Of a DNA stretch of 64,000 bases, positions 43,776 to 58,027 are shown one piece after another. The DNA comes from Deltaproteobacteria bacterium HGW-Deltaproteobacteria-6 (lineage in GTDB: Bacteria; Desulfobacterota; Syntrophia; Syntrophales; Smithellaceae), in NCBI GenBank assembly GCA_002840435.1, contig PHAT01000001.1, positions 366,300 to 430,299 of the forward strand, read 5' to 3'. The first letter of the stretch is position 1. The number at the start of each line of letters is the position of its first letter. The notes under the pieces were generated by a model, which saw nothing but the letters and a program-made list of their open reading frames with translations, ran no database searches and was not told where the DNA came from. The position numbers and the translations under genes were made by a program.

Positions 43776-46700
43776 ATGACAGGTAAAACAACTTATTTTA
43801 TAGATGCCGGCATGGAAAAATTGCATGTTCGGCATACCGGCGGCAACGGCCGGAGATATCATGACCATATCTATCTGCATCGCGGGCATCTGGAGCATTT
43901 TCTGGAAGGCATCAGAAAAAATATCCGGAATGAATCAAAAGAAAAGGCCGGCGGCAATCCCGAAATCTATTTAACGGGGAAATTATCGGCGCAGGCAAAA
44001 AACGTCCTCGGATATGGAAAACGTCTGCATCCGGAAACCGTTTTGTGGCAAGCGTCTCACAATCTTCTGATGAATCCGCCGGACCATCTGCGCCCCGTGC
44101 AGTCCTTGGCGATAATTGATTTTTCGGCATCCGGGTTTTGTATTGCGGCGGCGCATAAGCAAGAAGGCATTACCCCGCGCTTTATAGAAAAAAACCCTTC
44201 CTGCGGGGCCGGATCGGGAATAAATCTACGGCGCGTTCTGGAGAAACTGAATATTGCCGCCGACGATGTGGATTCAATACTCAAGGACTATCTGGAGGAG
44301 GACGGACAAGCGCTGCGGAATGCCCTGCCGGTCCGGATGGAGCGCTGCGGCGTATTCAGTGTTTCGGCAACTGTATCCGACAAAAATCAGGGGCTTCCCG
44401 TCGAGCATGCCCTGGCCGTAACCATGAAATCGGAAGCCGCCAAAGCGGCGTCGCGCGTGCCGCGGGGTATCAGCCGTGTGTATCTGGCCGGTGGAATGTT
44501 CCGCTGGCAATTTCTGCGGAATTGCGTGGCCGACTTTCTCTGTGCACAGGGCGTTAACGACATTATATACGATGAAAAGCAGTCGCTCATCTTCCTGGGA
44601 ATGAAGGCTTTAAAGAAGAAGCAGGATGATAGGAAAGATGGCTCCTCCATATCGGCAGGATTGCGGCAAAGAAAAGAGGCGCAGATCTTCCTGCCTTCTT
44701 TTCAAGAGCTGAAAATTAAGCTCACCGGCTCAGACCGATATGTCAACTGTCAGGACGAAGATGAAAAAATACCTGCAGCCGCTATTTTAGAGACTGAACC
44801 GGTGAATATTGCTCTGGACATCGGTTCCAGCATGGCAAAGATGATCATTACAGATGCCGTAAACGGCAAAACGCTCTGGCTAAACAGCATTGTTAACAAA
44901 GGGGACGCCCTGCAAACCGTCCGCCGTTTTCTGGAAACAATCCGGCAAGCAGGTTGCCACGGACTTCCGGTGCAGCACTGGGGGCTTACCGGAAGCGGCC
45001 GCTACCAGATTCAGAGAATACTCCAGACGATATATCCGCACCTGCGGGAGCGCGTTTTCACGCGGGTCGAAAATGAAGTCCACGTCCTGGGCTCCCTGCA
45101 AATATTGGAAGAACATATTGCCGGTTTGAAACGTCGGGGATACGACGAAATCAATGACAAAAGTGGTATTCTGGTCGACATCGGCGGTGAAGACACAAAA
45201 ATATCCATTATTGACTTGCGGCGGAAATCTTTGAGGGAAAATGCCATGAACTGCAAATGTTCGGCGGGAACAGGAAGCCTTATGGATATACTCCGTGAGC
45301 TGCTGGACATTCCTGATGTTGCCACCGCTTACCGGATGGCATCCCGGGCTTCGAAGGCGAGGCGCATCAACGCCACCTGCGCCGTTTTCCTGATGGAGGA
45401 AGCCCGGAAGATGCAGGCCCGGGGTGTGGATGTCGGTGAAATCCTGGCCTCCTGCTGTTATGCGATTGTAGAAAACATGGCCAGAACCCTGTGGCCTCAA
45501 GTCAATATTTTACCGAATAGCGTCGTCCTTCTCCACGGCCAAACGATGCAAAGCGATCCGCTGGCATTGGCTGCCATCGACCGGCTGGAAGCTCATTGCC
45601 GCGGACCGATCTATGGATTGATTCCGCCTCACCCCGGCTACCGTGCCTGCTTTGGCCTGCAAAGCCTGATGCCCGCTCAACAGGAAATAATCGGGCAAAT
45701 CTGCAACTGGGAAAGCCTTACCGCATGGTCATACAAGCGGCAATTATTTGCGTGTTCCGGATCGGCCTGCGGCAACGATTTAATGCGCTGTACCCGCACA
45801 ACCATATCTTCCGGGCAGGAAGAGTTGCCGATCAAACTGAACATCGGCGGTTGCACATCCGTCAATGACCGGGAAGCCCTCCGCCAATCTTCCGTTAATA
45901 GTGTCCCCGATGCCTACCGGGAAATATGGCAATGGATAACACGCCAGCACCCGCAAACAAAAAGCGCCGACAGGCTTGTCATTCCGCGGTGCTTCGCCCT
46001 GTCGCAGCAGGCTTATCTGCTGGCAAAATGCTTTGAACAGTCCGGCATTCCCGTGCATACCGATGCGGTTTGCGCGGAGGATATTCGGACGGGACAAAAA
46101 AATTTCGATCTGGACACCTGTGCACCCAACATCGGTGCGGCCGGGCAACTCATTCGTCTGGCGGCGACACCGCACCGTTTGATTTTTGTGCCGCAGATTG
46201 ATTTTCTGCCCACTATCGGGGCAAGTCTGGGCAGAACCTGCACAACCAATCAGGGCGGAATCTGGGCGGCAATCCAGTTTGCCCGTCTTGCCCATCCTCA
46301 TGCGCGTTTCATGGTTAAACCGGTCAACCTGGGAGAGGGCGACCCGCTGGCGATGACCCGTCAGCTTTACCGGTCGTTTCAGGAAGTATTTGCCGTTTAT
46401 GGCATCCATATCACTTCGTCCCGCTTTCAGGATATCTGGCAGGCAAGCCTTGACGCTCAGGCGAAACTGAATGAAAAAACGGCTGATCTCACGGCGGGGT
46501 ATCTGGAACAGGCCGCTTCGGGCGATATTCCCGTCACGGTTGTCTGCGGCCGTGAATACGTGCTCAATCCCGGCATTTATGACCAGCACATCAGTAAACT
46601 TCTCAGGGACAAGGGCATCATGCCCATACCCTCATATGCCCTTGACGCAATACTTGATCCGGAATATTCCCATATTTACTGGAGGAACACCCACGACGTT

Positions 46701-48539
46701 TTAAGCAAAGTCAAAGCTATTGCCGATGGGACGCTTTCTTCAAAAATTACTCATCCCCGCCTGCGGGAGGCCGTCCATCGTCTGGAAAATGCCGCTTCCG
46801 GACACAGGTTGACATACGCTCTGGTGACGACTTTCCGCTGCGGTCCGGACAGCGTTACCGCTCCGTTGCTGCAGGAAGTCGCCAGATCCGTGCCTGCGCT
46901 TTGGATTCAATCGGATGGAACAATCGCCGAATTGGCCCACCTGGAAAACAGGATCAGCACGCATCTGCGCCGGATTCAACAAAAGCGGGAACAGGGCAGG
47001 GCTTATCCGCCGGGCCTGCGGATGGAGATCCTCAATCAATTTAATCTGGATGCCTTAAACGATAAAACCGATGTTGTTTATTTCCCCACGCTGAGCGACA
47101 ACCGCGTGATGACCGCGTTTGCCAGGGGCCTTGGATTTGCGGCCATTGACAATTACATCGAAGAAGATTTCGACATGGAGGAAAAAGGCCGTCTGGGACG
47201 CCGGTATGTCGGCAATGACGTCTGTCTCCCGCTGGCGGCCGTGTTTGCCGACATGCTCCTGGCCATTGAGGATTTTATGAAGCGGCAGAAAGCAGATGAT
47301 CCGCTCGTCCGGGATAAAAGCCGCATTATCCTGTTCATGAACGGCGGCGACGGACCCTGCCGGCTGGGACAATATATTCAGGTTTTTAAACTGGCCTTTT
47401 TCAAGACTTTCGGTTCTTCCCGGGTTTCTGATGCCACGGGATCAGGTTTGGTGAACATCCGCCTTCTGGAAAATCTTTCCAGCAGTATCGCCGGGAGAAA
47501 TGACTATTCATCCGTGGTGGAACCGTGGGTCGGAATTCTCGGCTATCAGGCAGTCGTCGTTCACGGGCTTTGCCACAGCATGCTGTTTGCGGCTGCGGCA
47601 AACTGCCGGGATGAAAAAACCTATGACGCCATGATATCCGACTATCGGCAGCTTCAGCAAAATATACGCGATCAGGTTGAATTCAAAGCCCGGCCTAACA
47701 GCATAGCGCAACAAACGGTCAATCTGATCAGCCGGCAATATCCGGCCTTAGCCCCGGCGGCAAAATATTTGGGATACGGTCTCTGGCGCAATTTCGGACT
47801 GCGCAAAATCATCCGGCAATTCGCCGGGTCCTGGATTCTGCCCGGCCTCAAAAACCATAAGCAGGACCAATCTTTAATGCGCATTCATCTGGATGGAGAA
47901 ATCTATATGAGGACCAGCCAATCCGGAGAAATATTGCGCTTATTATTGCAATATCTGGGTTTCGGCTCTTTTGCCATGACTATGACGCCGACCTGGAGCT
48001 TCTTTGAGGCAGTTCTGCATACGAGAATTCTGACGGCTCAGGAGAGGATTGCCGATCTGGATAATGCCGGAGATGGAAATGACCTGTCGGTTGCCGCGGA
48101 GAAGAAAATCCAACAGATGATTATCCATGAAGCCGGAAATACGATCAGCAACCTGAGAAATGTGCTGGCGCGCCCGCTGTATGATGCCGCCGGTGTGACA
48201 ATGCCGCATCCCATGCGCGACGTTTATCAAGCCGCTTCAGCCGTCATTCCGACAGCGAAGCCTTACGGAGAGCTGGTTCCCTTTGTGGGTGAGGCCATCC
48301 TGCGCTGCCGGGAGAATGTTGATCTGATTTTAAATTTATCGCCGGAAGGGTGCATGGTTTCCGGAATGGGAGAAATGCTGATACCTTCCATTACCGCTCA
48401 GGCCGGGCCAACAAACAGGACGGCCGTTGTCTCTATATTTTCAAGGGACGGGGAAGTGCAGGAGGAGCAGTTGAGTCTTGCCCTGCTCAAAGCGCCGCGG
48501 TTTCACTGGGGCGGTGTCCTGCCCGATTGCGCGCCATGA
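43776..48539 (+). CDS. Giant double-activase/2-hydroxyacyl-CoA dehydratase protein, PlsA-PlsR/glycerol ester reductase-like
   Basis: The 1587-residue cytoplasmic protein contains two ASKHA activase modules and dehydratase-type modules. Module 1 (about 5-285) has SCGAGSG with Cys143 and a second Cys191. Module 2 (about 343-640) has LDIGSSMAKM, DIGGEDTK (468-475), Cys495 in CKCSAGTG and Cys535 in NATCAVF. Both modules keep the pair of Cys used for the bridging [4Fe-4S]. A Cys-rich DUF2229-like region follows (C660, C665, C672, C693), then an HgdB-like C-terminal half. This layout is that of the plasmalogen synthase PlsA-PlsR of Clostridium and the glycerol ester reductase implicated in bacterial ether lipids. 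Acyl-CoA reductase functions remain possible. No clear ribosome site. Confidence 0.8.
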   Translation: MTGKTTYFIDAGMEKLHVRHTGGNGRRYHDHIYLHRGHLEHFLEGIRKNIRNESKEKAGGNPEIYLTGKLSAQAKNVLGYGKRLHPETVLWQASHNLLMNPPDHLRPVQSLAIIDFSASGFCIAAAHKQEGITPRFIEKNPSCGAGSGINLRRVLEKLNIAADDVDSILKDYLEEDGQALRNALPVRMERCGVFSVSATVSDKNQGLPVEHALAVTMKSEAAKAASRVPRGISRVYLAGGMFRWQFLRNCVADFLCAQGVNDIIYDEKQSLIFLGMKALKKKQDDRKDGSSISAGLRQRKEAQIFLPSFQELKIKLTGSDRYVNCQDEDEKIPAAAILETEPVNIALDIGSSMAKMIITDAVNGKTLWLNSIVNKGDALQTVRRFLETIRQAGCHGLPVQHWGLTGSGRYQIQRILQTIYPHLRERVFTRVENEVHVLGSLQILEEHIAGLKRRGYDEINDKSGILVDIGGEDTKISIIDLRRKSLRENAMNCKCSAGTGSLMDILRELLDIPDVATAYRMASRASKARRINATCAVFLMEEARKMQARGVDVGEILASCCYAIVENMARTLWPQVNILPNSVVLLHGQTMQSDPLALAAIDRLEAHCRGPIYGLIPPHPGYRACFGLQSLMPAQQEIIGQICNWESLTAWSYKRQLFACSGSACGNDLMRCTRTTISSGQEELPIKLNIGGCTSVNDREALRQSSVNSVPDAYREIWQWITRQHPQTKSADRLVIPRCFALSQQAYLLAKCFEQSGIPVHTDAVCAEDIRTGQKNFDLDTCAPNIGAAGQLIRLAATPHRLIFVPQIDFLPTIGASLGRTCTTNQGGIWAAIQFARLAHPHARFMVKPVNLGEGDPLAMTRQLYRSFQEVFAVYGIHITSSRFQDIWQASLDAQAKLNEKTADLTAGYLEQAASGDIPVTVVCGREYVLNPGIYDQHISKLLRDKGIMPIPSYALDAILDPEYSHIYWRNTHDVLSKVKAIADGTLSSKITHPRLREAVHRLENAASGHRLTYALVTTFRCGPDSVTAPLLQEVARSVPALWIQSDGTIAELAHLENRISTHLRRIQQKREQGRAYPPGLRMEILNQFNLDALNDKTDVVYFPTLSDNRVMTAFARGLGFAAIDNYIEEDFDMEEKGRLGRRYVGNDVCLPLAAVFADMLLAIEDFMKRQKADDPLVRDKSRIILFMNGGDGPCRLGQYIQVFKLAFFKTFGSSRVSDATGSGLVNIRLLENLSSSIAGRNDYSSVVEPWVGILGYQAVVVHGLCHSMLFAAAANCRDEKTYDAMISDYRQLQQNIRDQVEFKARPNSIAQQTVNLISRQYPALAPAAKYLGYGLWRNFGLRKIIRQFAGSWILPGLKNHKQDQSLMRIHLDGEIYMRTSQSGEILRLLLQYLGFGSFAMTMTPTWSFFEAVLHTRILTAQERIADLDNAGDGNDLSVAAEKKIQQMIIHEAGNTISNLRNVLARPLYDAAGVTMPHPMRDVYQAASAVIPTAKPYGELVPFVGEAILRCRENVDLILNLSPEGCMVSGMGEMLIPSITAQAGPTNRTAVVSIFSRDGEVQEEQLSLALLKAPRFHWGGVLPDCAP

Positions 48540-48809: not shown

Positions 48810-50492
48810 GTGTTCATAAAGTTTATTCGCTTTTCTTTTCTGGCTTTCAGTTTGTTGTTTTTACCGTTAACAGCGGTAAGTATCATGGCCGCCCAGCCCA
48901 CGTCCGTTGTTCAGAGTCAACCGGATGCTAATGCAACACTCCCCAAACCCGTTTTGCAGAAAATACCGGAAATATCCTTATCCGATGCCGTGTTGAAAAC
49001 ACTCAAGGTTAATCCCGGCGTCTCCGTCTATCAGGAGAAAGTGGTGCAAAGCGAAGGGCTGCAGCAGAAAGCCGCAGGGCAGTTTGACTGGTCCGTGCGG
49101 TCCCTGGTCTCCTACGACCGTCAAAAAGCTTCGTTAGACAGCTATGACCAAAAGGATGCGCTGGCCTATTCGCTGCTCAATAAAACTCCTTATTATGATT
49201 ATTTACAGGAAGACACCAAAACATATTCACTGGGGCTGGCCAAACAATTCCGTTCCGGTATTACAGTAGCGCCAAATGTTGCGGTGGTCGATTATGATTC
49301 CAATGCCGATGTCAAGGGGCCAATCAGCCGTTCGGAAATGCGCATCGAACTCAATGTTCCTTTGTTGAGAGGTCTGGGAACCCAGGCGACCGGAGCCGAT
49401 GAACTGGCGGCAATATCGCAGGCCAAGTCCACCAGGCTGCTGGCCCGGCAGAATATCGCCCAGGCCATATACAATACCGCCATCAGTTACTGGAACTCTC
49501 TGGCGGCAAAAATGAGTTTTGAACTGACGGCCGATACGCAGGAAAGATCAAAAAAATTACTCGACTTGGTTGAGAAACTTGTGCGGGCCGGGTTACTGGA
49601 ACCGGCGGCGCTCAATCAGGCCAGAGCCAACCTGCTGATCGGTCAGGTGGACGTCAGCACCGGAGAAACATCTTTTTACAGAAGCAGACAGGCCCTGGCC
49701 TTGGCCATGGGCATGACACCCCGGGAACTCCCTGATGCTCCGAATCCCGGAAGCCGGTTTCCCGGCGTCATCGACGCGTCTGCATTGAACAACGTTGATA
49801 TCAACCGGTTCATTGACGAAGCCATGCGCAGGAGAGGCGATTATCTCGCCGCCCAGACCGATATCGAAACCGCCAGAACATTGCTGGCGAAAGCCGAGAA
49901 CGAAACCAAACCCAAACTGGATTTGGGATTAAAGCTGGGATATGCCGGGGAGGATGAAGCTTTCAGCTCCAATCGGTATTTAAGTTCAATGAGCCGCAAT
50001 GTTACCGGACTTAACTCATTGGTATCACTGTCCCTGGAATTGCCCGTTTTCAATAATGTGGCGCGCGGCAATATGGTTTACCGCAAGTCACTGTTTCGGG
50101 AAGCGGAACTCATTCAGAATGATTTAGCCAACCGGATTGCTTCGGATATATTGAATGCCTATAGATCCCTCTCCTCGGCCATCAATGAACATCAACTCGC
50201 TTCCGAATCGGAAAAAGCCTATAAGAAAGCCGTGGAATTCGAAAATCAGAAATACAAGGCGGGTTCATCGACGCTCACGGCGCTGATCGATATTGAAGAC
50301 CGTTATCTCCGCTCCAGAATAGCGACCATTGAGGCGCTGCGTAAATATTCGGTTGCCATGGCGCAATTCCGTCTGGTTACCGGAACCATGCTGGACGTTC
50401 AGGATAAAACATTGAATTTTGATGAACAAAAATTACTGGAATTTCCTTTAATTATTCAGGCAGGCGTTAATAATGACAGGATGATAAAATGA
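48810..50492 (+). CDS. TolC-family outer membrane efflux protein
   Basis: This 560-residue protein has a signal peptide (about 1-30) and two outer membrane efflux repeats. The first begins near LSDAVLKTLKVNPGVSVYQEKV; helical periplasmic segments rich in Ala, Gln and Glu include AISQAKSTRLLARQNIAQAIYNTAISYWNSL (in two stretches). Conserved YKAGSSTLTALIDIE near the end matches the second repeat. It forms the outer membrane duct of a tripartite exporter. The start is GTG with AGGGTAA upstream. It overlaps the HlyD gene by 4 bases. Confidence 0.9.
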   Translation: MFIKFIRFSFLAFSLLFLPLTAVSIMAAQPTSVVQSQPDANATLPKPVLQKIPEISLSDAVLKTLKVNPGVSVYQEKVVQSEGLQQKAAGQFDWSVRSLVSYDRQKASLDSYDQKDALAYSLLNKTPYYDYLQEDTKTYSLGLAKQFRSGITVAPNVAVVDYDSNADVKGPISRSEMRIELNVPLLRGLGTQATGADELAAISQAKSTRLLARQNIAQAIYNTAISYWNSLAAKMSFELTADTQERSKKLLDLVEKLVRAGLLEPAALNQARANLLIGQVDVSTGETSFYRSRQALALAMGMTPRELPDAPNPGSRFPGVIDASALNNVDINRFIDEAMRRRGDYLAAQTDIETARTLLAKAENETKPKLDLGLKLGYAGEDEAFSSNRYLSSMSRNVTGLNSLVSLSLELPVFNNVARGNMVYRKSLFREAELIQNDLANRIASDILNAYRSLSSAINEHQLASESEKAYKKAVEFENQKYKAGSSTLTALIDIEDRYLRSRIATIEALRKYSVAMAQFRLVTGTMLDVQDKTLNFDEQKLLEFPLIIQAGVNNDRMIK

Positions 50493-51406
50493 AGAATAAA
50501 ATATTTCTTGTATGTTGTTTGGCAGTCGCCTCGATATTTACCGTCCTCGCGGCAACGGCGACGTTTGCCGCCGAGAAAAAGATCGGCGCTCTGGGCAGAA
50601 TAAAACCCCACGGGGGCGTTGTTCTTGTCAGCATCCCTCCGGGCAATATTATTTCTTCCGTGCTGGTGAAGAGAGGGGATGTCGTTAAGAAAGGAACGCT
50701 TCTGCTCATCTCCCGGGAAGCCTATCCGAATGAGGCGGAAATAGCCGCGGCGGAAATGGATTTGAAAGAAGCGAATACCGCCGGGAAAAAAGCAATCGAA
50801 ATAAAAAAACTGGAAGCGAATATTGACAAGATGCAACTGGACCATGCCCGGTCATCTTTAAAACGCATGCTGGAAGGGGGAAGTGACACGTATTCAACCC
50901 AGGCCAAGGAAGAAAAGGAGCATGCGGTCAGCCTTGCCGAAGCAAAATTCAATTTATCCACCAAAGAGCTGGAGCGACTGAAATTAAATCAGGAGATTAA
51001 TGCATCCAGGGCATCGGCCAAAGTCAAGGCGGGCAGAATCAAGGCGCAGCAGTCAAGGGTTTGCGCGCCCATTGACGGAACCATACTGGAAATCAGCCAG
51101 AACATAGGCGGTTCAGCCGAAGGTGAAGCGGTCGTAAAAATGGCGGATCTGAGCCGGATGGATGTATTGGCGGATGTCTTCGAGGGAGACGTTTTCAAAC
51201 TTTTTGTGGGAGCAAAAGCAACCATCACCAGCAAGGCGCTTTCCCATTCATTGACAGGCAAAATTACCGCGATTGGAAGAATTGTTTCAACAAAATCCCG
51301 CAATGTCGAGATTATGATCAGGCTGGATAATGCGGATGCGGCTTCCCGATTGATTAATCATGAAGTTAATGTTTCCTTTGATTTGCCCGGTACTGCCCGG
51401 AAGTAA
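50489..51406 (+). CDS. HlyD/DevB-family membrane fusion protein
   Basis: This 305-residue adaptor has a signal/anchor helix (about 7-27), a biotinyl-lipoyl-like half (LGRIKPHGGVVLVSIPPGNIISSVLVKRGDVVKKGTLL, in stretches), a coiled-coil hairpin (about 80-185), then ICAPIDGTILE-like second half (VCAPIDGTILEIS) and a beta-barrel domain. These link an inner membrane ABC transporter to TolC. It resembles DevB in length and lipoyl motif. The ATG overlaps the tolC stop, and the ATPase gene follows after 43 bases. Confidence 0.88.
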   Translation: MKNKIFLVCCLAVASIFTVLAATATFAAEKKIGALGRIKPHGGVVLVSIPPGNIISSVLVKRGDVVKKGTLLLISREAYPNEAEIAAAEMDLKEANTAGKKAIEIKKLEANIDKMQLDHARSSLKRMLEGGSDTYSTQAKEEKEHAVSLAEAKFNLSTKELERLKLNQEINASRASAKVKAGRIKAQQSRVCAPIDGTILEISQNIGGSAEGEAVVKMADLSRMDVLADVFEGDVFKLFVGAKATITSKALSHSLTGKITAIGRIVSTKSRNVEIMIRLDNADAASRLINHEVNVSFDLPGTARK

Positions 51407-51449
51407 ATGCGGATACGGGTGTACCGCCGCTTTGTAACCTGGAGAAAAT

Positions 51450-52586
51450 GTGAATACACAACCTGATAAAGCAACCGCTAAATCCGCCGGTTCAGCCGTC
51501 AAGACGCCGGTCGTCGAGGTTAAGGGTGTTAACTTTTCTTTCGGACAGGGCGAAGGACGCAAACAGGTTCTTTATGACAACAATCTGAGTTTATATTCAG
51601 GCGAAATTATTATCATGACCGGTCCATCGGGTTCCGGAAAGACAACTTTGCTGACGCTGATCGGCGCCCTGAGGGGATTGCAGGAAGGCAGCCTCAAAGT
51701 ATTCGGCAACGAACTGGCCGGACTTGGCGCAGCCGAGCAGGAAAAAATACGCCGAAATATCGGCTTTATCTTTCAGGCCCATAATCTGCTGGATTCCCTG
51801 ACCTGTTATCAGAACGTTAAACTGGTGACAGAATTAATCGATTACTCGCCGGGAGAAGCGGACCGTCTGACTTCGGATATCCTGACAAAGCTCGGGATGA
51901 AAGAACGCATGCTTTACAAGCCCCAGAGTCTTTCCGGCGGACAACGGCAACGGGTAGCCATAGGCCGCGCACTGGTCAACCGTCCGGGTTTGATTCTGGC
52001 CGATGAACCGACAGCCGCCCTGGACAAGGAAACCGGACGCCAGGTTGTCGACCTTTTGCGTGATCTGGCGGAAAATGAAGGCTGCACCATCATGATTGTT
52101 ACACATGACAACCGCATCCTGGATGTGGCCGACCGCATCGTTACCATGGTGGACGGTTATGTCGCATCCGATGTAGACGTCAATGAATCGCTGACCATCG
52201 TGCAATTCCTGAAAAAATGTTCCGTGTTTGAAACGTTCACGCCGACGCTGCTCGCCGACGTGGCCAACAAGATGCAGCGGGAGGCCCATCCGGCCGGCAC
52301 GGTCATCATCAAACAGGGAGACGAAGGCGATAAGTTTTACATCATACGGCGGGGTAAATTAGACGTGCTGAAAGAAAGCACGGGAAGGGTGGATGTTGTT
52401 GCTACTCTGGAAGCCGGTGCTTTCTTCGGCGAACTTGCCCTCCTGAGAAAAGAACCACGGGCCGCTACCGTCAAAGCAGTGGAAGAAGTTGAACTGTTGA
52501 CGCTTTCCAAAGACATATTCATGGATGTTGTAGAAAAGAGTGCGAGCTTCGAAGAACAATTACGCCGGGTATATTTCGCCAGATAG
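51450..52586 (+). CDS. DevA/LolD-like ABC ATPase with C-terminal cyclic-nucleotide-binding domain
   Basis: Residues about 20-245 form an ABC ATPase with Walker A GPSGSGKTT, signature LSGGQRQR, Walker B LILADEP and H-loop VTHD, closest to DevA/LolD/MacB types. Residues about 250-378 are a CRP-like cNMP-binding domain with GDEGDKFYIIRRGKLDVL and an intact phosphate-binding cassette FGELALLRKEPRAATV, including the Arg that contacts cyclic phosphate. Export may thus be gated by cAMP or cGMP. The start is GTG. No permease gene lies in this operon; the DevC-like pair at 30410-32696 is the obvious candidate. Confidence 0.88.
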   Translation: MNTQPDKATAKSAGSAVKTPVVEVKGVNFSFGQGEGRKQVLYDNNLSLYSGEIIIMTGPSGSGKTTLLTLIGALRGLQEGSLKVFGNELAGLGAAEQEKIRRNIGFIFQAHNLLDSLTCYQNVKLVTELIDYSPGEADRLTSDILTKLGMKERMLYKPQSLSGGQRQRVAIGRALVNRPGLILADEPTAALDKETGRQVVDLLRDLAENEGCTIMIVTHDNRILDVADRIVTMVDGYVASDVDVNESLTIVQFLKKCSVFETFTPTLLADVANKMQREAHPAGTVIIKQGDEGDKFYIIRRGKLDVLKESTGRVDVVATLEAGAFFGELALLRKEPRAATVKAVEEVELLTLSKDIFMDVVEKSASFEEQLRRVYFAR

Positions 52587-52703
52587 TAGGTTTTCGAAAA
52601 AATTATTCGCCGTTCATATTTCTAAGAAAAACAACTTCCGATATATTATCCTGCACAATTTTAATTACAAAGAAACCAGACAGGGCCAGTCAGTCGACGG
52701 CGA

Positions 52704-53030
52704 TCATTCTTTGCTGCTTTTGTGAATCAGGCGCGTTTTTTCAGTACCCCTGCCCGGAAGATAGCTATATTCCTGCTCCAGGTCGGAAGCAATTCTTTCC
52801 CGCCAGTTGATCCGGATCAGACAGGGCAGGGCCGTCAATGAATTAAAGTCCGCAGGTAAGTCCTCAGGGTCGATATCGCACTGGTTCTTGTAATAGACAA
52901 CGGTATAGTTGCCGACAACCACGGATTCATGCTGGAAAAAATAACAAACAGGCATCAGTGCTAAAATACAAAAAGCTCCCGCAGCGGCGATCCAGATATT
53001 TTTAGCATTTTTTTGTTTCTTTATTCCCAT
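52704..53030 (-). CDS. Single-pass membrane protein, unknown
   Basis: This 108-residue protein has a Lys-rich cytoplasmic start (MGIKKQKNAKN), one membrane helix (IWIAAAGAFCILALMPVCYFF) and a soluble extracytoplasmic part of about 75 residues with a Cys at CDIDPED and CLIRI. I recognise no family. It lies 50 bases downstream of the acetate kinase fusion gene in the same direction and could be its operon partner. The ribosome site is poor, so the gene is less certain than its neighbours. Confidence 0.5.
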   Translation of the reverse strand: MGIKKQKNAKNIWIAAAGAFCILALMPVCYFFQHESVVVGNYTVVYYKNQCDIDPEDLPADFNSLTALPCLIRINWRERIASDLEQEYSYLPGRGTEKTRLIHKSSKE

Positions 53031-53080
53031 GGTTGCGAAATATAGGAAATAAAATACAGTTTAGCAAGGTATACTTTTCA

Positions 53081-55408
53081 TTACGTATAGTTCCGGTGCT
53101 GAATGGCTTCTATATACCCGAAGGTTCCGGTGGAAATCTGGGCGGCATTGGCTTCATCCGTATCCAGATGCATATCCAGCCGATATTTGGGATTGACGCG
53201 CACCAGCACGTCGCCAAAAATCAGTTCCCTCACACCCTTGACTTTAACCATGACCACGTCTTTATCCCGCAATCCGAGGTTCAACGCTTCTTCAGGCGAT
53301 ATGTGGATGTGGCGCTTGGCGCAGATAACGCCTTTGTCCAGTTTTACCGTGCCCGCATCTCCTTCAATGGTTATTCCCGGAGTTCCCTCAAGATCACCGG
53401 AGTCTCTGACGGGAGGATCGATGCCCAGCTTGAACTGTTCGGTGCGCGAGATCTCCACCTGGGATTCTTTGCGCGCGGGACCGAGAATCCGGACGCGTTC
53501 AATTCTGCCTTTCGGGCCGATCAGGTTAACCGTTTCAACGGCTGCAAACTGATCCGGCTGGCTCAGTTCGGAACGGGGGGTCATGGTCTTCCCAGCGCCG
53601 AAAAGCATTTCAAAATGCTCCTGGGTCAGATGAACATGATGCGCCGATGTGGATATGACGATCGGCCGTGATCTGAGCTGCTTAATATCTTCTATAGACC
53701 GTGTACGGCCCAGTGCGTGGACTGTCTCCCGGGCAATCATTTTTTCTTCATCCGCCGGAACGACAAGAATTCTGATTTTAGAGGCGGGTTCGGAAATATC
53801 GGTGATCCGGCCGCGCCGGGCTTTCATTTTGGTGTTAATGTCATCGAACACAATAATGCCGAGCGCTTGCATGCCATGACAGATGCGGGCGCGTATGTCG
53901 ATGGAATTTTCCCCGATGCCGCCGGTGAAGATGAGGGCATCGAGCCCGCCCATGGCCGCAAAGTAGGCTCCGATATATTTTCTGATCCGGTAGCAGAAAG
54001 CACTGACCGCCTTTTCACACCTGACATCTCCCGCTTCCGCCTCTTTTAAAAGGGTCCGCATGTCGTTGCTCTTGCCGGAAATTCCCAATAAACCGCTTTG
54101 GCAGTTGAGCATCCGGTCAATCTCATCGGCAGTCATCTCCCGATGCCGCAGCAGATGAAGGATGACCCCGGGATCAACATCTCCGGCGCGTGTTCCCATA
54201 ATCAGGCCTTCCAGCGGCGTCATGCCCATGCTGGTATCCACGCTGCGGCCATGATCAATCGCGCAAACCGAAGCGCCGCTTCCCAGATGGCAGGAAATAA
54301 TTTTTAATTCACCCAGCGGGCGTTTCAGAAACGTTGCCGCGCTCAAGGCGACAAACTTGTGATTGGTGCCGTGAAAGCCGTAGCGGCGAATTTGTTCTTC
54401 ATCGCAGACCGTGTAAGGCAGCGCGTAGGTATAAGCATCTTCCGGCATGCCCACGTGAAAGGACGTGTCGAAAACAGCAACCTGCGGAGCATCGGGAATG
54501 AGCTTCTGCATCAGCTCGATTCCTTCCAGATTATAGGGATTGTGCAGCGGCGCCAGGGGAATCAGATCTTTAATCGCCGCGGAGACCTCAGGGTTGACCA
54601 TGATGGAATTGGGAAACCGCACACCGCCATGAACGACACGGTGGCCGACCGCTTTGATTTCGCTTAAATCGCCCATGCCCGTATAAGCCATGTCGGTGAT
54701 TGTGGAAACCATCAGGGTAAAGGCATTTTCAACGGCTGCGACCTCCTTCACCGGAAACTTTTTTTCAGCATCCGGTGTCCTGATCACATGGGAGGCGTCG
54801 CCGGAACCGATTTTTTCAATGAGCCCTTCAATCACCGGGGATGTTTTCGTCGTATCAAATAACGTATACTTCAGGGATGAACTGCCGCAGTTCACGGTCA
54901 GGATCTTCATGGGCTCATAGACGGAAGAAAAATTCAGATCGTAAGGATCTTCATTTTCCTTGTGAATATTTTTCAGCCGTTCCCGGGCGTCATCCTGTTC
55001 ATTCCGCAAGAGCCTTTTGGTCACGAGTCGCGTGAATTTGACGAGCGTTTGGGGATTCCTGGCAATCATTCCGGAAAATATTTCGCGTGGAATCCGGATA
55101 ATTCTGGCGGCCCGAAAGGCAACGACGTCCAGCACCGCCGGTTCTCCGGTTAACAGGGACATTTCACCGAAGACTTGCTCCCGTTCCAGAGAGGCAACCG
55201 TGCGCTGACTGCCGTCGTCCTCCGTGAGCAATACTTCCACTTCACCGTCATAGACCACCCACAGGAAACGGCCGGGTTCTCCCCGTTTGATAATCAGGCT
55301 GCCGTCCGGAAAATCGATGACCTGCGCGTTTCCGGCAAGGAGGGCAATGTCATCGTCGGGCAAATCGGCAAGAATCTCGATTTTTTTCAGAAACAAGGGA
55401 AGTTCCAT
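53081..55408 (-). CDS. Triple fusion: cNMP-binding-like domain, acetate kinase, PduL-type phosphotransacylase
   Basis: The 775-residue protein has three modules. Residues 1-140 form a CRP-like domain whose cassette reads FGEMSLLTGEPAVLDVV and lacks the usual Arg. Acetate kinase starts at Met167 (MKILTVNCGSSSLKY), with GHRVVHGG, FDTSFHVGMP, RYGFHGTNHK, HLGSGASVC, MGTRAGDVDPG and FTGGIGENS, the full active-site set. From about 575, PduL-type phosphate acyltransferase has STSAHHVHLTQEHF and AKRHIHISPEEA, the zinc-ligand His clusters. Together they convert acetyl-CoA and phosphate to acetate, making ATP. AAGGAGG fixes the start. Confidence 0.92.
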   Translation of the reverse strand: MELPLFLKKIEILADLPDDDIALLAGNAQVIDFPDGSLIIKRGEPGRFLWVVYDGEVEVLLTEDDGSQRTVASLEREQVFGEMSLLTGEPAVLDVVAFRAARIIRIPREIFSGMIARNPQTLVKFTRLVTKRLLRNEQDDARERLKNIHKENEDPYDLNFSSVYEPMKILTVNCGSSSLKYTLFDTTKTSPVIEGLIEKIGSGDASHVIRTPDAEKKFPVKEVAAVENAFTLMVSTITDMAYTGMGDLSEIKAVGHRVVHGGVRFPNSIMVNPEVSAAIKDLIPLAPLHNPYNLEGIELMQKLIPDAPQVAVFDTSFHVGMPEDAYTYALPYTVCDEEQIRRYGFHGTNHKFVALSAATFLKRPLGELKIISCHLGSGASVCAIDHGRSVDTSMGMTPLEGLIMGTRAGDVDPGVILHLLRHREMTADEIDRMLNCQSGLLGISGKSNDMRTLLKEAEAGDVRCEKAVSAFCYRIRKYIGAYFAAMGGLDALIFTGGIGENSIDIRARICHGMQALGIIVFDDINTKMKARRGRITDISEPASKIRILVVPADEEKMIARETVHALGRTRSIEDIKQLRSRPIVISTSAHHVHLTQEHFEMLFGAGKTMTPRSELSQPDQFAAVETVNLIGPKGRIERVRILGPARKESQVEISRTEQFKLGIDPPVRDSGDLEGTPGITIEGDAGTVKLDKGVICAKRHIHISPEEALNLGLRDKDVVMVKVKGVRELIFGDVLVRVNPKYRLDMHLDTDEANAAQISTGTFGYIEAIQHRNYT

Positions 55409-55741
55409 TTTTGCCTCCTTGGAAATAAAAAGGTTTCATTGTCGGGAAGAAAAGTATCCTGCTTCAGCAGATATTGTTTTATGATTTGCCGGCAAACCGG
55501 GAGCACGTGCCATACCCGAGCCGGCGCATGATAATAAATGAAACTCATGATGCGGACTTCGTTTCATTCGTTTTCAGTAAGTGCCATTAGTATTACAACA
55601 TCTGGAAAACAATGCAATACAAAATAAAGCATGCCCAATAAAGCTGAAAAATAAAAAAAGCTGAACTCTGGCATAACATATGTTACAAATAACGAAACAA
55701 TGGCGTATTTTAAATGCGCAGATAAATTTTCTTTGAGGGAT
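55409..55741. other. Divergent intergenic region with a 12-bp palindrome
   Basis: About 330 bases between the acetate kinase fusion and the Cache lipoprotein genes. It holds a perfect 12-base palindrome TAACATATGTTA at 55674-55685, a candidate operator, in an AT-rich setting. TTGCCG and TATCTG 16 bases apart on the minus strand near 55480-55500 may be a weak promoter for the fusion gene. No gene seen. Confidence 0.4.
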
Positions 55742-56674
55742 ATGAGTAAATTTATACGAACAAGCCGGCTTATTGCCTTCTCACCATTCCTGGCGCTGAT
55801 GTTTCTGTGCATATCGGGCTGTGAAAGCCGGTATGAAAATTTAGATCTCAGCGCCTATCAGTACCGGGATACAAAAGATCTTGTCAAATTTGTTTACAAT
55901 GCTTCGCTGATCCTCAAAAAAGACGGTTTGAAAAGTCTGGAATATTTCCGCAGCAACCGGAAGCTTCATTACACGCCGGACTACTACCTTTACATTTACG
56001 AAATGAACGGCGTGAATCTCTACCACGCAGGCATGCCGCATCTCGAGGGTAAAAATCTTTGGAATCTGACGGACAAAAACGGTAAAAAACCCATTCAGAT
56101 GGTGATAGCGGCCCTGGCTGATAAGAATAATCCCCATGGCTGGGTGCATTATTCCTGGTGGGAGCCGGGAAAATTCTATCCTGTTCCTAAATCCTCATGT
56201 CATTTCCGGGTTACAACCCCCGAAGGCAAAACATTATTCGTCGGCGGCGGTTTGAATTATCCACATGAAGAAAAAGAATTCATCAGAATTATCGTCGATG
56301 ATGCCGCTCAACTGCTCAAGGAAAAAGGTGATTCTGCGCTGCCCTTGATCGAAGACCCCGTTTCTGAATATATTTTCCGGGATGTGAAAGTATTTGTATT
56401 TACCAGGGCGGGCAAGCTGCTTGTATCGCCCGTGATGAACGACAGCCTTGCGGAATTCAAACTGCTGGATTGCGTCGATGAAATGGGCCACAAACCATTC
56501 GAGAAGGCGCTGAAAGAGCTGATGGATAAGAATTCAGTCTGGGAAATATTTCTGACGAAGAACCGGTATCAGCGGACCCTGGTCAAGAAGAGTTTGTACC
56601 TGCGCAAAACATCTGTCGCCGGCCAGGAAATCTACGTCGGCGCGATAACAGACCTTCCCCAGCCACCGGGATAA
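55742..56674 (+). CDS. Lipoprotein with Cache-type ligand-binding domain
   Basis: Starting at 55742 gives 310 residues with a lipoprotein signal (MSKFIRTSRLIAFSPFLALMF, then LCISGC, Cys being lipidated). An upstream in-frame ATG adds 14 residues but spoils the signal. The mature part looks like two PAS-like Cache units: DLVKFVYNASLILKKDGLKSLEYF...YYLYIYEMNGVNLYHAGMPHLEGKNLWNLTDKNGKKPIQ (in stretches) and later VKVFVFTRAGKLLVSP...KLLDCVDEMGHKPFEKAL. Cache domains bind small molecules outside the cell. It is 12 bases before an NCS2 permease gene, so it may be an accessory binding protein for that carrier or a sensor. Confidence 0.8.
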   Translation: MSKFIRTSRLIAFSPFLALMFLCISGCESRYENLDLSAYQYRDTKDLVKFVYNASLILKKDGLKSLEYFRSNRKLHYTPDYYLYIYEMNGVNLYHAGMPHLEGKNLWNLTDKNGKKPIQMVIAALADKNNPHGWVHYSWWEPGKFYPVPKSSCHFRVTTPEGKTLFVGGGLNYPHEEKEFIRIIVDDAAQLLKEKGDSALPLIEDPVSEYIFRDVKVFVFTRAGKLLVSPVMNDSLAEFKLLDCVDEMGHKPFEKALKELMDKNSVWEIFLTKNRYQRTLVKKSLYLRKTSVAGQEIYVGAITDLPQPPG

Positions 56675-56686
56675 TTGAGGCGGTAA

Positions 56687-58027
56687 ATGGCAGAGAACGA
56701 ACAATACGAATATTCTGTAAATGAAGTGCCGCCATTAGGACATTTATTGTTGTCGGCGTTTCAGCATGTGCTGATCATGGTTGTCGCGATCGGCCTCCCT
56801 ATTATTTTTGCCGGTCAGCTTAACGAAACACCTGAATTTACGGCTTCTCTGGTAACCTTTTCCATGCTGGCGTCGGGTATCGGCTCAATTCTCCAGGCAC
56901 TGCGCCTGCCTTATCTCGGGTCCGGTTATTTATGCCCGAATCTTTGCGGTCCTTCTTATTTGAGTCTGTCGCTTTCGGCGGCGTGGATTGGCGGCCTGCC
57001 TCTGATGCGCGGCATTACGATTGTTGCCGGTTTGATTGAGATGCTGCTTGCGCCGGTCATTCACAAGCTTAAAAACGTATTCCCGATATATATTGTCGGA
57101 CTGGTTGTCGCGCTGGTGGGAATCAGCGTTATTCAAATTTCGATAACATCGTTTTTCGGTCTTACTTTTCAAGGCGATGCCGTACGGAATATCGATATTT
57201 TTATCGGAACAGTTTCACTATTGATTATGGTCTGCTGCAATATCTGGGGGAAGGGATTTGTGAAGGTTTATTGCCTGATTATCGGGATATTCCTGGGTTG
57301 GATGCTGGCGCTGATCCTGACTCCCGAGTACTGGCAAAACCTTGTCTCAATCAAAAACAGTCCGCTTTTTGCGCTGCCTCAGTTTCATACGCTGCAAAAC
57401 CCGATTGCATTCCGTTTCGATCTGCTGATTCCTTTAATTGTTATTGCCATCGGCAGCACCTTGAAAACCTTCGGCAATCTTTTGGCTGCGCAGAAAATGT
57501 CGGAGCCTGCGCTGGAAAAGATAAACTTCATTCCCATACGCAACGGCATTATTGCCGACGGCCTGGCGACCACTCTGTCGGGATTTTTAGGTTCGATGGC
57601 CGTGGACACCTCTTCGAGCAATATCGGCCTGGCCGGCGCCACAAAAGTGCTCAGCCGATGGATCAGCGTGGCGGCCGGAATTATTTTTATTGTACTGGCG
57701 TTTTTCCCGATGCTGACCAATGCCCTCTCTCATATTCCCAAACCTGTTCTTGGCGCTTCGCTCATTTTCAGCGGATGTTTTATGATTTGCGCGGGGTTAA
57801 TACAGATGCTGAATGAAAACTGGGACCAGCGAAAAACATTTGTGGTCGGGATTGCGTTGTTTTTCGGTTTAAGCACCGCTTTTCTGCCTTCGCTGTATGC
57901 CCGGGCGCCGAAAATTATCCAGACGTTTTTTACCGACCCGTTGCCGACGGCAACAATTCTTGCCGTGATATTGAATCAATTATTTAATCTGGACATCATT
58001 TATAAAAAAATAAGAAAGAGAGATTAG
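56687..58027 (+). CDS. NCS2/NAT-family nucleobase permease (uracil/xanthine type)
   Basis: This 446-residue carrier has 12-14 membrane helices. It opens with PPLGHLLLSAFQHVLIMVVAIGLPIIFAG, where QH in the first helix is a family hallmark. A long signature near GDGLATTLSGFLGSMAVDTSSSNIGL (here ADGLATTLSG) follows the region where nucleobase carriers place the substrate Glu. The family couples uptake of uracil, xanthine or urate to protons. The substrate-loop sequence GSGYLCPNLCGPSYL is unusual, so the exact base is uncertain. Probably co-transcribed with the Cache lipoprotein. Confidence 0.82.
   Translation: MAENEQYEYSVNEVPPLGHLLLSAFQHVLIMVVAIGLPIIFAGQLNETPEFTASLVTFSMLASGIGSILQALRLPYLGSGYLCPNLCGPSYLSLSLSAAWIGGLPLMRGITIVAGLIEMLLAPVIHKLKNVFPIYIVGLVVALVGISVIQISITSFFGLTFQGDAVRNIDIFIGTVSLLIMVCCNIWGKGFVKVYCLIIGIFLGWMLALILTPEYWQNLVSIKNSPLFALPQFHTLQNPIAFRFDLLIPLIVIAIGSTLKTFGNLLAAQKMSEPALEKINFIPIRNGIIADGLATTLSGFLGSMAVDTSSSNIGLAGATKVLSRWISVAAGIIFIVLAFFPMLTNALSHIPKPVLGASLIFSGCFMICAGLIQMLNENWDQRKTFVVGIALFFGLSTAFLPSLYARAPKIIQTFFTDPLPTATILAVILNQLFNLDIIYKKIRKRD

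Follow-up and report, generated by a model that had tools for sequence, protein, structure and literature searches.

A cyclic nucleotide-binding-type domain fused to acetate kinase and PduL phosphotransacylase in a Syntrophales genome

Gene, domains, and catalytic positions

We analyzed a 64,000-nucleotide stretch of contig PHAT01000001.1 (here called the window) from Deltaproteobacteria bacterium HGW-Deltaproteobacteria-6, a relative of the propionate degrader Smithella, and focused on a minus-strand gene that starts with an ATG at position 55408, ends with a stop codon at 53081-53083, and has 775 codons. A preliminary description, made from the sequence alone, had given the coordinates 53081-55408, which are exact, without stating the strand. 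It had also proposed that a cNMP-type domain, an acetate kinase, and a PduL phosphotransacylase are joined in one chain, and Pfam indeed recognized all three. The cNMP_binding profile (PF00027) matched residues 32 to 118 with 66 bits against a cut-off of 27.5, which makes the domain a member of the cyclic nucleotide-binding (CNB) fold, the Acetate_kinase profile (PF00871) matched over its whole length (residues 168 to 560, 472 bits), and the PTAC/PduL profile (PF06130) matched over nearly its whole length (residues 585 to 758, 255 bits). NCBIfam calls agreed with Pfam for both enzyme domains. The features of the gene are as follows.

53081..55408, minus strand: whole gene, CNB, acetate kinase, and PduL; 775 aa in a single open frame (Pfam)
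55414..55420, minus strand: AAGGAGG, resembling a ribosome-binding site, 5 bases upstream of the ATG (direct reading of the sequence)
54959..55408, minus strand: N-terminal CNB-type domain, residues 1-150 (Pfam PF00027 at 32-118, structural model, VIA)
55124..55171, minus strand: cassette for the cyclic phosphate, residues 80-95, FGEMSLLTGEPAVLDV (alignments)
54911..54955, minus strand: linker, residues 152-166, with the DPYDLxF motif (alignments)
53729..54907, minus strand: acetate kinase domain, residues 168-560 (Pfam, alignment to 1tuu, fold match to 1g99)
53135..53656, minus strand: PduL phosphotransacylase domain, residues 585-758 (Pfam, alignment to 5cuo, fold match to 5cuo)

A full-length AlphaFold2 model, built with 36 aligned fusion sequences, contained three well-formed domains (mean pLDDT, 88.3; pTM, 0.83). 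No Rfam match was found in window positions 50000-58000, and the promoter and terminator scans returned about what was expected from shuffled sequence (6 versus 3.8 and 5 versus 4.0, respectively). Just downstream of the gene, on the same strand, lies a 108-aa open frame without a Pfam match (52704-53030).

The acetate kinase domain belongs to the AckA family (TIGR00016; residues 167 to 564, 471 bits against a cut-off of 293), and a Foldseek search with the full-length model matched it to the Methanosarcina thermophila acetate kinase 1g99 with a TM score of 0.95 on target length. We checked ten positions that we take to be functional residues of the Methanosarcina enzyme. In the alignment to 1tuu, N173, S176, S178, K180, and R257 correspond to N7, S10, S12, K14, and R91 of M. 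thermophila, and H289, D314, H346, R407, and E554 correspond to H123, D148, H180, R241, and E384. All ten are standard in every row of an alignment of the window protein with 15 copies from related genomes (A2; 16 rows).

The same Foldseek search matched the PduL domain to the Rhodopseudomonas palustris PduL 5cuo (TM score of 0.96 on target length). PduL has a two-zinc site formed by His48, His50, Glu109, His157, His159, and His204, to which Arg103 is added (excerpted text of PMC4784909). In the alignment to 5cuo, the zinc-ligand positions are occupied by H591, H593, E652, H700, H702, and H747 and the phosphate position by Arg646, so that the window protein reads HHREHHH at the seven positions and belongs to the two-zinc-site type. 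The seven residues are standard in all 16 rows of A2. We also compiled a broader alignment (A3; 36 rows) of the window protein, 20 named three-domain chains, and 15 of 49 named two-domain chains, the named rows being drawn from the best 80 of 555 stretches; here the six zinc ligands are kept in 36/36 rows, and Arg103 is replaced by Lys in two (L062 and L085). A single chain that carries acetyl-CoA to acetate plus ATP, as first suggested, is supported by these residues, the checked active-site positions being intact for both steps.

The kinase positions are less uniform in A3. Two three-domain chains (L050 and L069) and one two-domain chain (L055) lack four or five of the ten, and three Nitrospirae rows differ at S10 (L044, L046, and L048), the last also at K14. 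In L050 and L069, H123 is replaced by Glu or Asp and N7 by Ser; in L055, H180 is replaced by Phe and R91 by Gln; the PduL zinc ligands are intact in all three. The kinase domains of these three proteins are possibly pseudo-acetate-kinases.

Conservation, distribution, and metabolic setting

We found the unbroken three-domain chain, in one frame, in 16 of 59 related genomes, the host included, and the other 15 copies are 62 to 92% identical to the window protein. In G022, a further relative, a contig end interrupts the chain, and another three have acetate kinase-PduL (Ack-PduL) only. Compared with the nearest copy (92% identical), the overall dN/dS was 0.088, with 0.095 for the CNB domain, 0.085 for the kinase, and 0.079 for PduL, which points to purifying selection on each of the three domains; the value of 0.33 for residues 140 to 170, around the linker, rests on few changes. 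A sequencing frameshift joining separate genes, which the preliminary description had named as a possible objection, is ruled out by the recurrence of the chain in these relatives and by the purifying selection. The host genome is a 53-contig assembly, which could make one suspect an error of this kind, but the relatives were assembled independently and the intact chain also occurs in 20 of the 80 named loci (best 80 of 555), leaving an artefact with a negligible probability.

To place the fusion more widely, named loci were scanned with two peptide patterns, and the best 80 of 555 confirmed stretches were kept. Acetate kinase and PduL lie in one chain in 70 of these 80: 20 loci have the intact three-domain chain, one has it with a split frame (L045, a metagenome-assembled genome [MAG] titled Syntrophus aciditrophicus), and 49, a few of them cut by contig ends, have Ack-PduL without a detected CNB domain. 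In the remaining 10, PduL alone was detected. According to the record titles within this set, three-domain carriers include Syntrophaceae/Smithella, Deltaproteobacteria, Phycisphaerae, a Kuenenia MAG, Lentisphaerae, Hydrogenedentes, and Nitrospirae such as "Candidatus Magnetobacterium casense" and Magnetominusculus. The concern that the same order might be common in databases thus holds for Ack-PduL, which was already in print in 2016 (excerpted text of PMC4784909). The three-domain order is less ordinary but no isolated case, as it recurs under the titles of several phyla. Among 198 sampled genomes of the phylum, we found the intact chain in five (G000, which is the host, G013, G043, G106, and G141) and a chain split over two frames in G069. 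The three carriers from outside the window's order (G106, G141, and G069) share one family code, so the chain is uncommon in this sample.

In a quick tree of 85 rows, with SH-aLRT support only, all 28 three-domain rows fell inside one set of 35 rows (SH-aLRT, 86). The set also contains seven other rows: L055, L049 (truncated at its start by the contig), and five Syntrophales rows with two domains, of which two are identical. Among the named rows (best 80 of 555), Syntrophaceae bacterium UBA8930 and a Smithella MAG lie nearest to the window protein. A single gain of the CNB domain, followed by occasional loss and by occasional transfer from phylum to phylum, would be the simplest account compatible with these sequences. 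Since the five Syntrophales rows have Ack-PduL alone, the N-terminal domain is not an obligatory part of the fused enzyme. Two other sequences (L096 and L098) have long N-terminal extensions, which we rejected as candidate domains because they look like an upstream open frame; L098 has no further family match.

We then examined the host genome for other enzymes of acetate metabolism. It has no match to the classical phosphotransacetylase Pta (PF01515), and its only PF06130 match is the fusion protein, which is therefore the only phosphotransacylase found in it with these two profiles. PF06130 is present in 20 of the 59 related genomes, each with a full match inside an Ack-PduL fusion; one of the genomes, G005, has a further fragment of 66 bases at a contig start. 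A replacement of the classical Pta by the fusion across the order is not supported, as PF01515 matches, each of them partial, also occur in nine of the 20 fusion-bearing relatives (G012, G022, G023, G025, G037, G038, G043, G050, and G056). Among the 59 relatives, a full-length PF01515 match was found in G052 alone, which lacks the fusion.

That the fusion is the only acetate route of the host is likewise ruled out, since the genome encodes two AMP-forming acetyl-CoA synthetases over the family cut-off, and a domain of ADP-forming synthetases is matched 14 times. Several routes are thus possible, the fusion among them, and the bulk of the acetate flux does not have to pass through it. In Syntrophus aciditrophicus, which has no homologues of phosphate acetyltransferase and acetate kinase, an AMP-forming synthetase is run backwards (excerpted text of PMC4992975). 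The host also has a second, free acetate kinase (L002, C1:129423-130655), which adjoins a DsrP family membrane subunit and a sulfoacetaldehyde acetyltransferase (Xsc; TIGR03457 over cut-off, partial sequence). Given its position beside Xsc, this kinase probably serves acetyl phosphate derived from sulfonates.

A BLASTP comparison of the genetic surroundings of the fusion covered the open frames of window positions 40000-64000 and of 20 named three-domain loci (from the best 80 of 555), some of which have little flanking sequence. No neighbor gene family common to at least three of these loci was found: the groups that reached three loci consisted of the fusion, frame shadows of it, and CNB-like matches, all others being limited to two loci. 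The fusion therefore has no conserved neighbor in this comparison and stands alone. In the window, its divergent neighbors are a Cache-domain protein (55700-56674, plus strand) and a permease of the NCS2 type (xanthine/uracil family; 56687-58027, plus strand), for neither of which the comparison with the 20 named loci revealed an adjacent counterpart. The convergent neighbor (51450-52586, plus strand) is a DevA-type ABC exporter ATPase with a C-terminal CNB domain; this domain has a canonical PRAAT cassette and is 30% identical to the N-terminal domain of the fusion. Further away (43776-48539, plus strand) lies a gene for a 1,587-aa protein in which regions of a BadF/BcrA-type acyl-CoA dehydratase activase and of DUF2229 were recognized.

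The N-terminal domain and its altered cassette

A model of residues 1 to 180 (pLDDT, 82.5) predicted a beta roll at about residues 29 to 107, followed by helices at 108 to 116 and 119 to 151, the long helix being broken into 119 to 138 and 141 to 151 in the full-length model. VIA gave Z scores of about 20 to the CRP-type proteins GlxR, Clr, and MtbCRP. The domain had been called CRP-like, and the predicted structure agrees, with a CNB fold that would carry a CRP-like helical tail. In the linker that follows, D154, P155, Y156, D157, L158, F160, and S162 are invariant in 16/16 rows of A2. DPYDLxF was also found in six Nitrospirae rows, and it is absent or changed in several others (for example, L050, L052, L053, L056, L057, and L069).

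The alignment with cGMP-dependent kinase showed that the cassette keeps the ribose-binding Glu (Glu82) and has Ala91 opposite the phosphate-contacting Arg and Asp94 opposite the usual Thr/Ser. We extended this comparison to 36 distinct copies of the CNB domain: the 16 of A2, 16 nonduplicate named copies, L134, L135, and the split copies L136 and L045, after removal of duplicates (L038, L039, L040, and L042, identical to L011, L017, L019, and L022, respectively). Position 91 is Ala in 20 copies, Thr in nine, Ser in four, and Asn, Glu, and Val in one each. Arg or Lys thus occurs in 0/36, in agreement with the loss of the phosphate-contacting Arg noticed in the preliminary description, and none of the copies has the Arg expected of a cAMP or cGMP binder. 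Position 94 is Asp in 29 copies, Asn in three, Ser in three, and Glu in one, so that an acidic residue stands where Thr/Ser is usual in 30/36. The ribose Glu is kept in 35/36, with Asp in L045, in line with CNB membership. Among the 15 other PF00027 domains of the host genome, 10 keep the Arg and five do not, as read from their alignment; its absence is therefore not rare in itself, but in the fusion family it is uniform.

The domain might still bind cAMP or cGMP weakly and act as an ordinary cyclic-nucleotide switch. The Pfam CNB match is well over its cut-off, the best PDB sequence matches are cGMP- and cAMP-dependent kinases, and the host genome has eight matches to class III cyclase domains, which suggests that cyclic nucleotides are made in the host. 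By the same token, the loss of the Arg is not simply due to an absence of cyclic nucleotides. The missing Arg in every copy and the Asp/Glu at the Thr/Ser position in 30/36 speak against such a switch, which we regard as improbable.

Column identity over 21 diverse rows is 0.68 in the cassette versus 0.41 in the linker and 0.29 to 0.33 in the rest of the domain. The FGE motif and the Pro are conserved in CNB domains generally, so this high value is only partly specific to the fusion. We nevertheless lean towards a ligand other than a cyclic nucleotide, which the conservation of the cassette and its acidic residue would favor at the sequence level. Alternatively, the domain could be a purely structural module for dimer or oligomer formation, without a ligand, on a constitutively active enzyme. 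This would fit with the absence of the Arg in 36/36 copies, with the helix at 119 to 151 of the domain model and the fold match to CRP-type proteins, and with the lack of the whole domain in the five Syntrophales two-domain rows. A mere spacer would have no need for a cassette conserved at 0.68 when the helical tail is at 0.30 and the roll at 0.33 (21 rows), and we hold this structural role to be a serious but lesser possibility.

A more specific alternative is that the domain binds a neutral ribose ligand, for example, a purine nucleoside, and lets the enzyme respond to the energy or purine status, as in trypanosome protein kinase A (PKA), which has switched from cAMP to purine nucleosides (excerpted text of PMC10959531). 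The kept ribose Glu, the lost Arg, and an acidic cassette residue that may repel phosphate recall the trypanosome regulatory subunit TbPKAR (same source), and wild-type nucleoside-binding trypanosome PKAR structures appeared at Foldseek ranks 18 and 41 to 43 among the 50 matches listed. Rank 4, however, was an engineered TbPKAR mutant changed back towards cAMP, cAMP-bound CRP and PKA structures matched the model at least as well, and no trypanosome entry was present among the 50 VIA matches listed; the fold therefore does not single out nucleoside reading. The acidic residue also sits at another cassette position: it is Asp94 in the fusion, and E311 of TbPKAR corresponds to Ser84. At this position, two residues after the Glu of FGE, none of the 36 copies has the Glu of the TbPKAR type (33 have Ser and three have Ala). 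We therefore consider a nucleoside-type ligand doubtful.

Proposed function and relation to known systems

Taking these results together, we think it probable that the protein is a bifunctional enzyme that converts acetyl-CoA into acetate plus ATP and that its CNB-derived domain serves in dimerization or allostery and does not read cAMP or cGMP. The C-terminal PduL domain would use two zinc ions to form acetyl phosphate from the acyl-CoA and phosphate, and it might also make propionyl phosphate. The acetate kinase domain in the middle would then transfer the phosphate of acetyl phosphate to ADP, yielding acetate and ATP, both steps being reversible. Being fused, the two enzymes would be present in constant proportion, and less acetyl phosphate may escape. 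The N-terminal domain would most likely provide a dimer interface, allosteric control of the chain, or both. That it should not read cyclic nucleotides is suggested by the lost phosphate Arg and the acidic residue usually present near the phosphate site, the ribose Glu being kept.

A bolder reading, which we put forward as a speculation with rather low expectations, is that a lineage of anaerobes placed the conversion of acetyl-CoA to acetate and ATP under an allosteric CNB domain that had switched to a neutral ligand, either nucleoside-like or another ribose compound. Bacteria would then have evolved, independently and on an ATP-making enzyme, a parallel to the switch of trypanosome PKA, and in a side branch of Phycisphaerae and Lentisphaerae with a decayed kinase, PduL would be controlled by the CNB domain together with a pseudokinase.

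For syntrophic and related anaerobes the available energy is very small, and it has been an open question how members of the Syntrophales gain ATP from acetyl-CoA. The fusion offers an alternative, single-chain route in a Syntrophus-related genome, with a sensor-like domain of its own, that a PF01515 search misses. Should the N-terminal domain act as a ligand switch, it would couple ATP formation at the substrate level with a small-molecule signal within one protein and would be a simple test case for ligand change in CNB domains.

Both enzyme domains have relatives of known structure. The kinase domain shares whole-domain homology, fold, and the ten checked positions with the M. thermophila enzyme (1tuu/1g99), which is a free enzyme, whereas the domain here is fused on both sides. 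The R. palustris PduL (5cuo) is 45% identical in the structural match and has the six zinc ligands and the phosphate Arg in common with our domain; it comes from a microcompartment, whereas PduL is here one domain of a three-domain chain. The Ack-PduL fusion itself and the channeling idea are already in print: Erbilgin et al. (2016) noted two-domain fusions of acetate kinase and PduL in one chain and made the same channeling proposal (excerpted text of PMC4784909). The present protein adds the N-terminal CNB-type domain and the DPYDLxF linker, the CNB domain being unmentioned in the excerpted text of that paper. We found no publication linking a cyclic nucleotide-binding domain to acetate kinase, nor a description of the CNB addition, in the literature searched, which included few subscription papers; we regard the CNB-Ack-PduL chain as a variant of a known fusion enzyme.

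The N-terminal domain has two parallels. In mycobacterial Pat (Rv0998; 4ava/4avb), which was among the VIA and Foldseek matches, a CNB domain likewise stands N-terminal to an enzyme of acetyl-CoA chemistry, but Pat acetylates lysine residues, its structures contain cAMP and acetyl-CoA according to the entry titles, and its catalytic domain differs from those of the fusion. The trypanosome PKA regulatory subunits (6FLO, 6HYI; excerpted text of PMC10959531) resemble our domain in the CNB fold, the kept ribose Glu, the lost Arg, and the presence of an acidic cassette residue. They are eukaryotic tandem CNB domains on a protein-kinase regulator, with the acidic residue at another position of the cassette, and their likeness to the domain described here is an analogy and not a membership.
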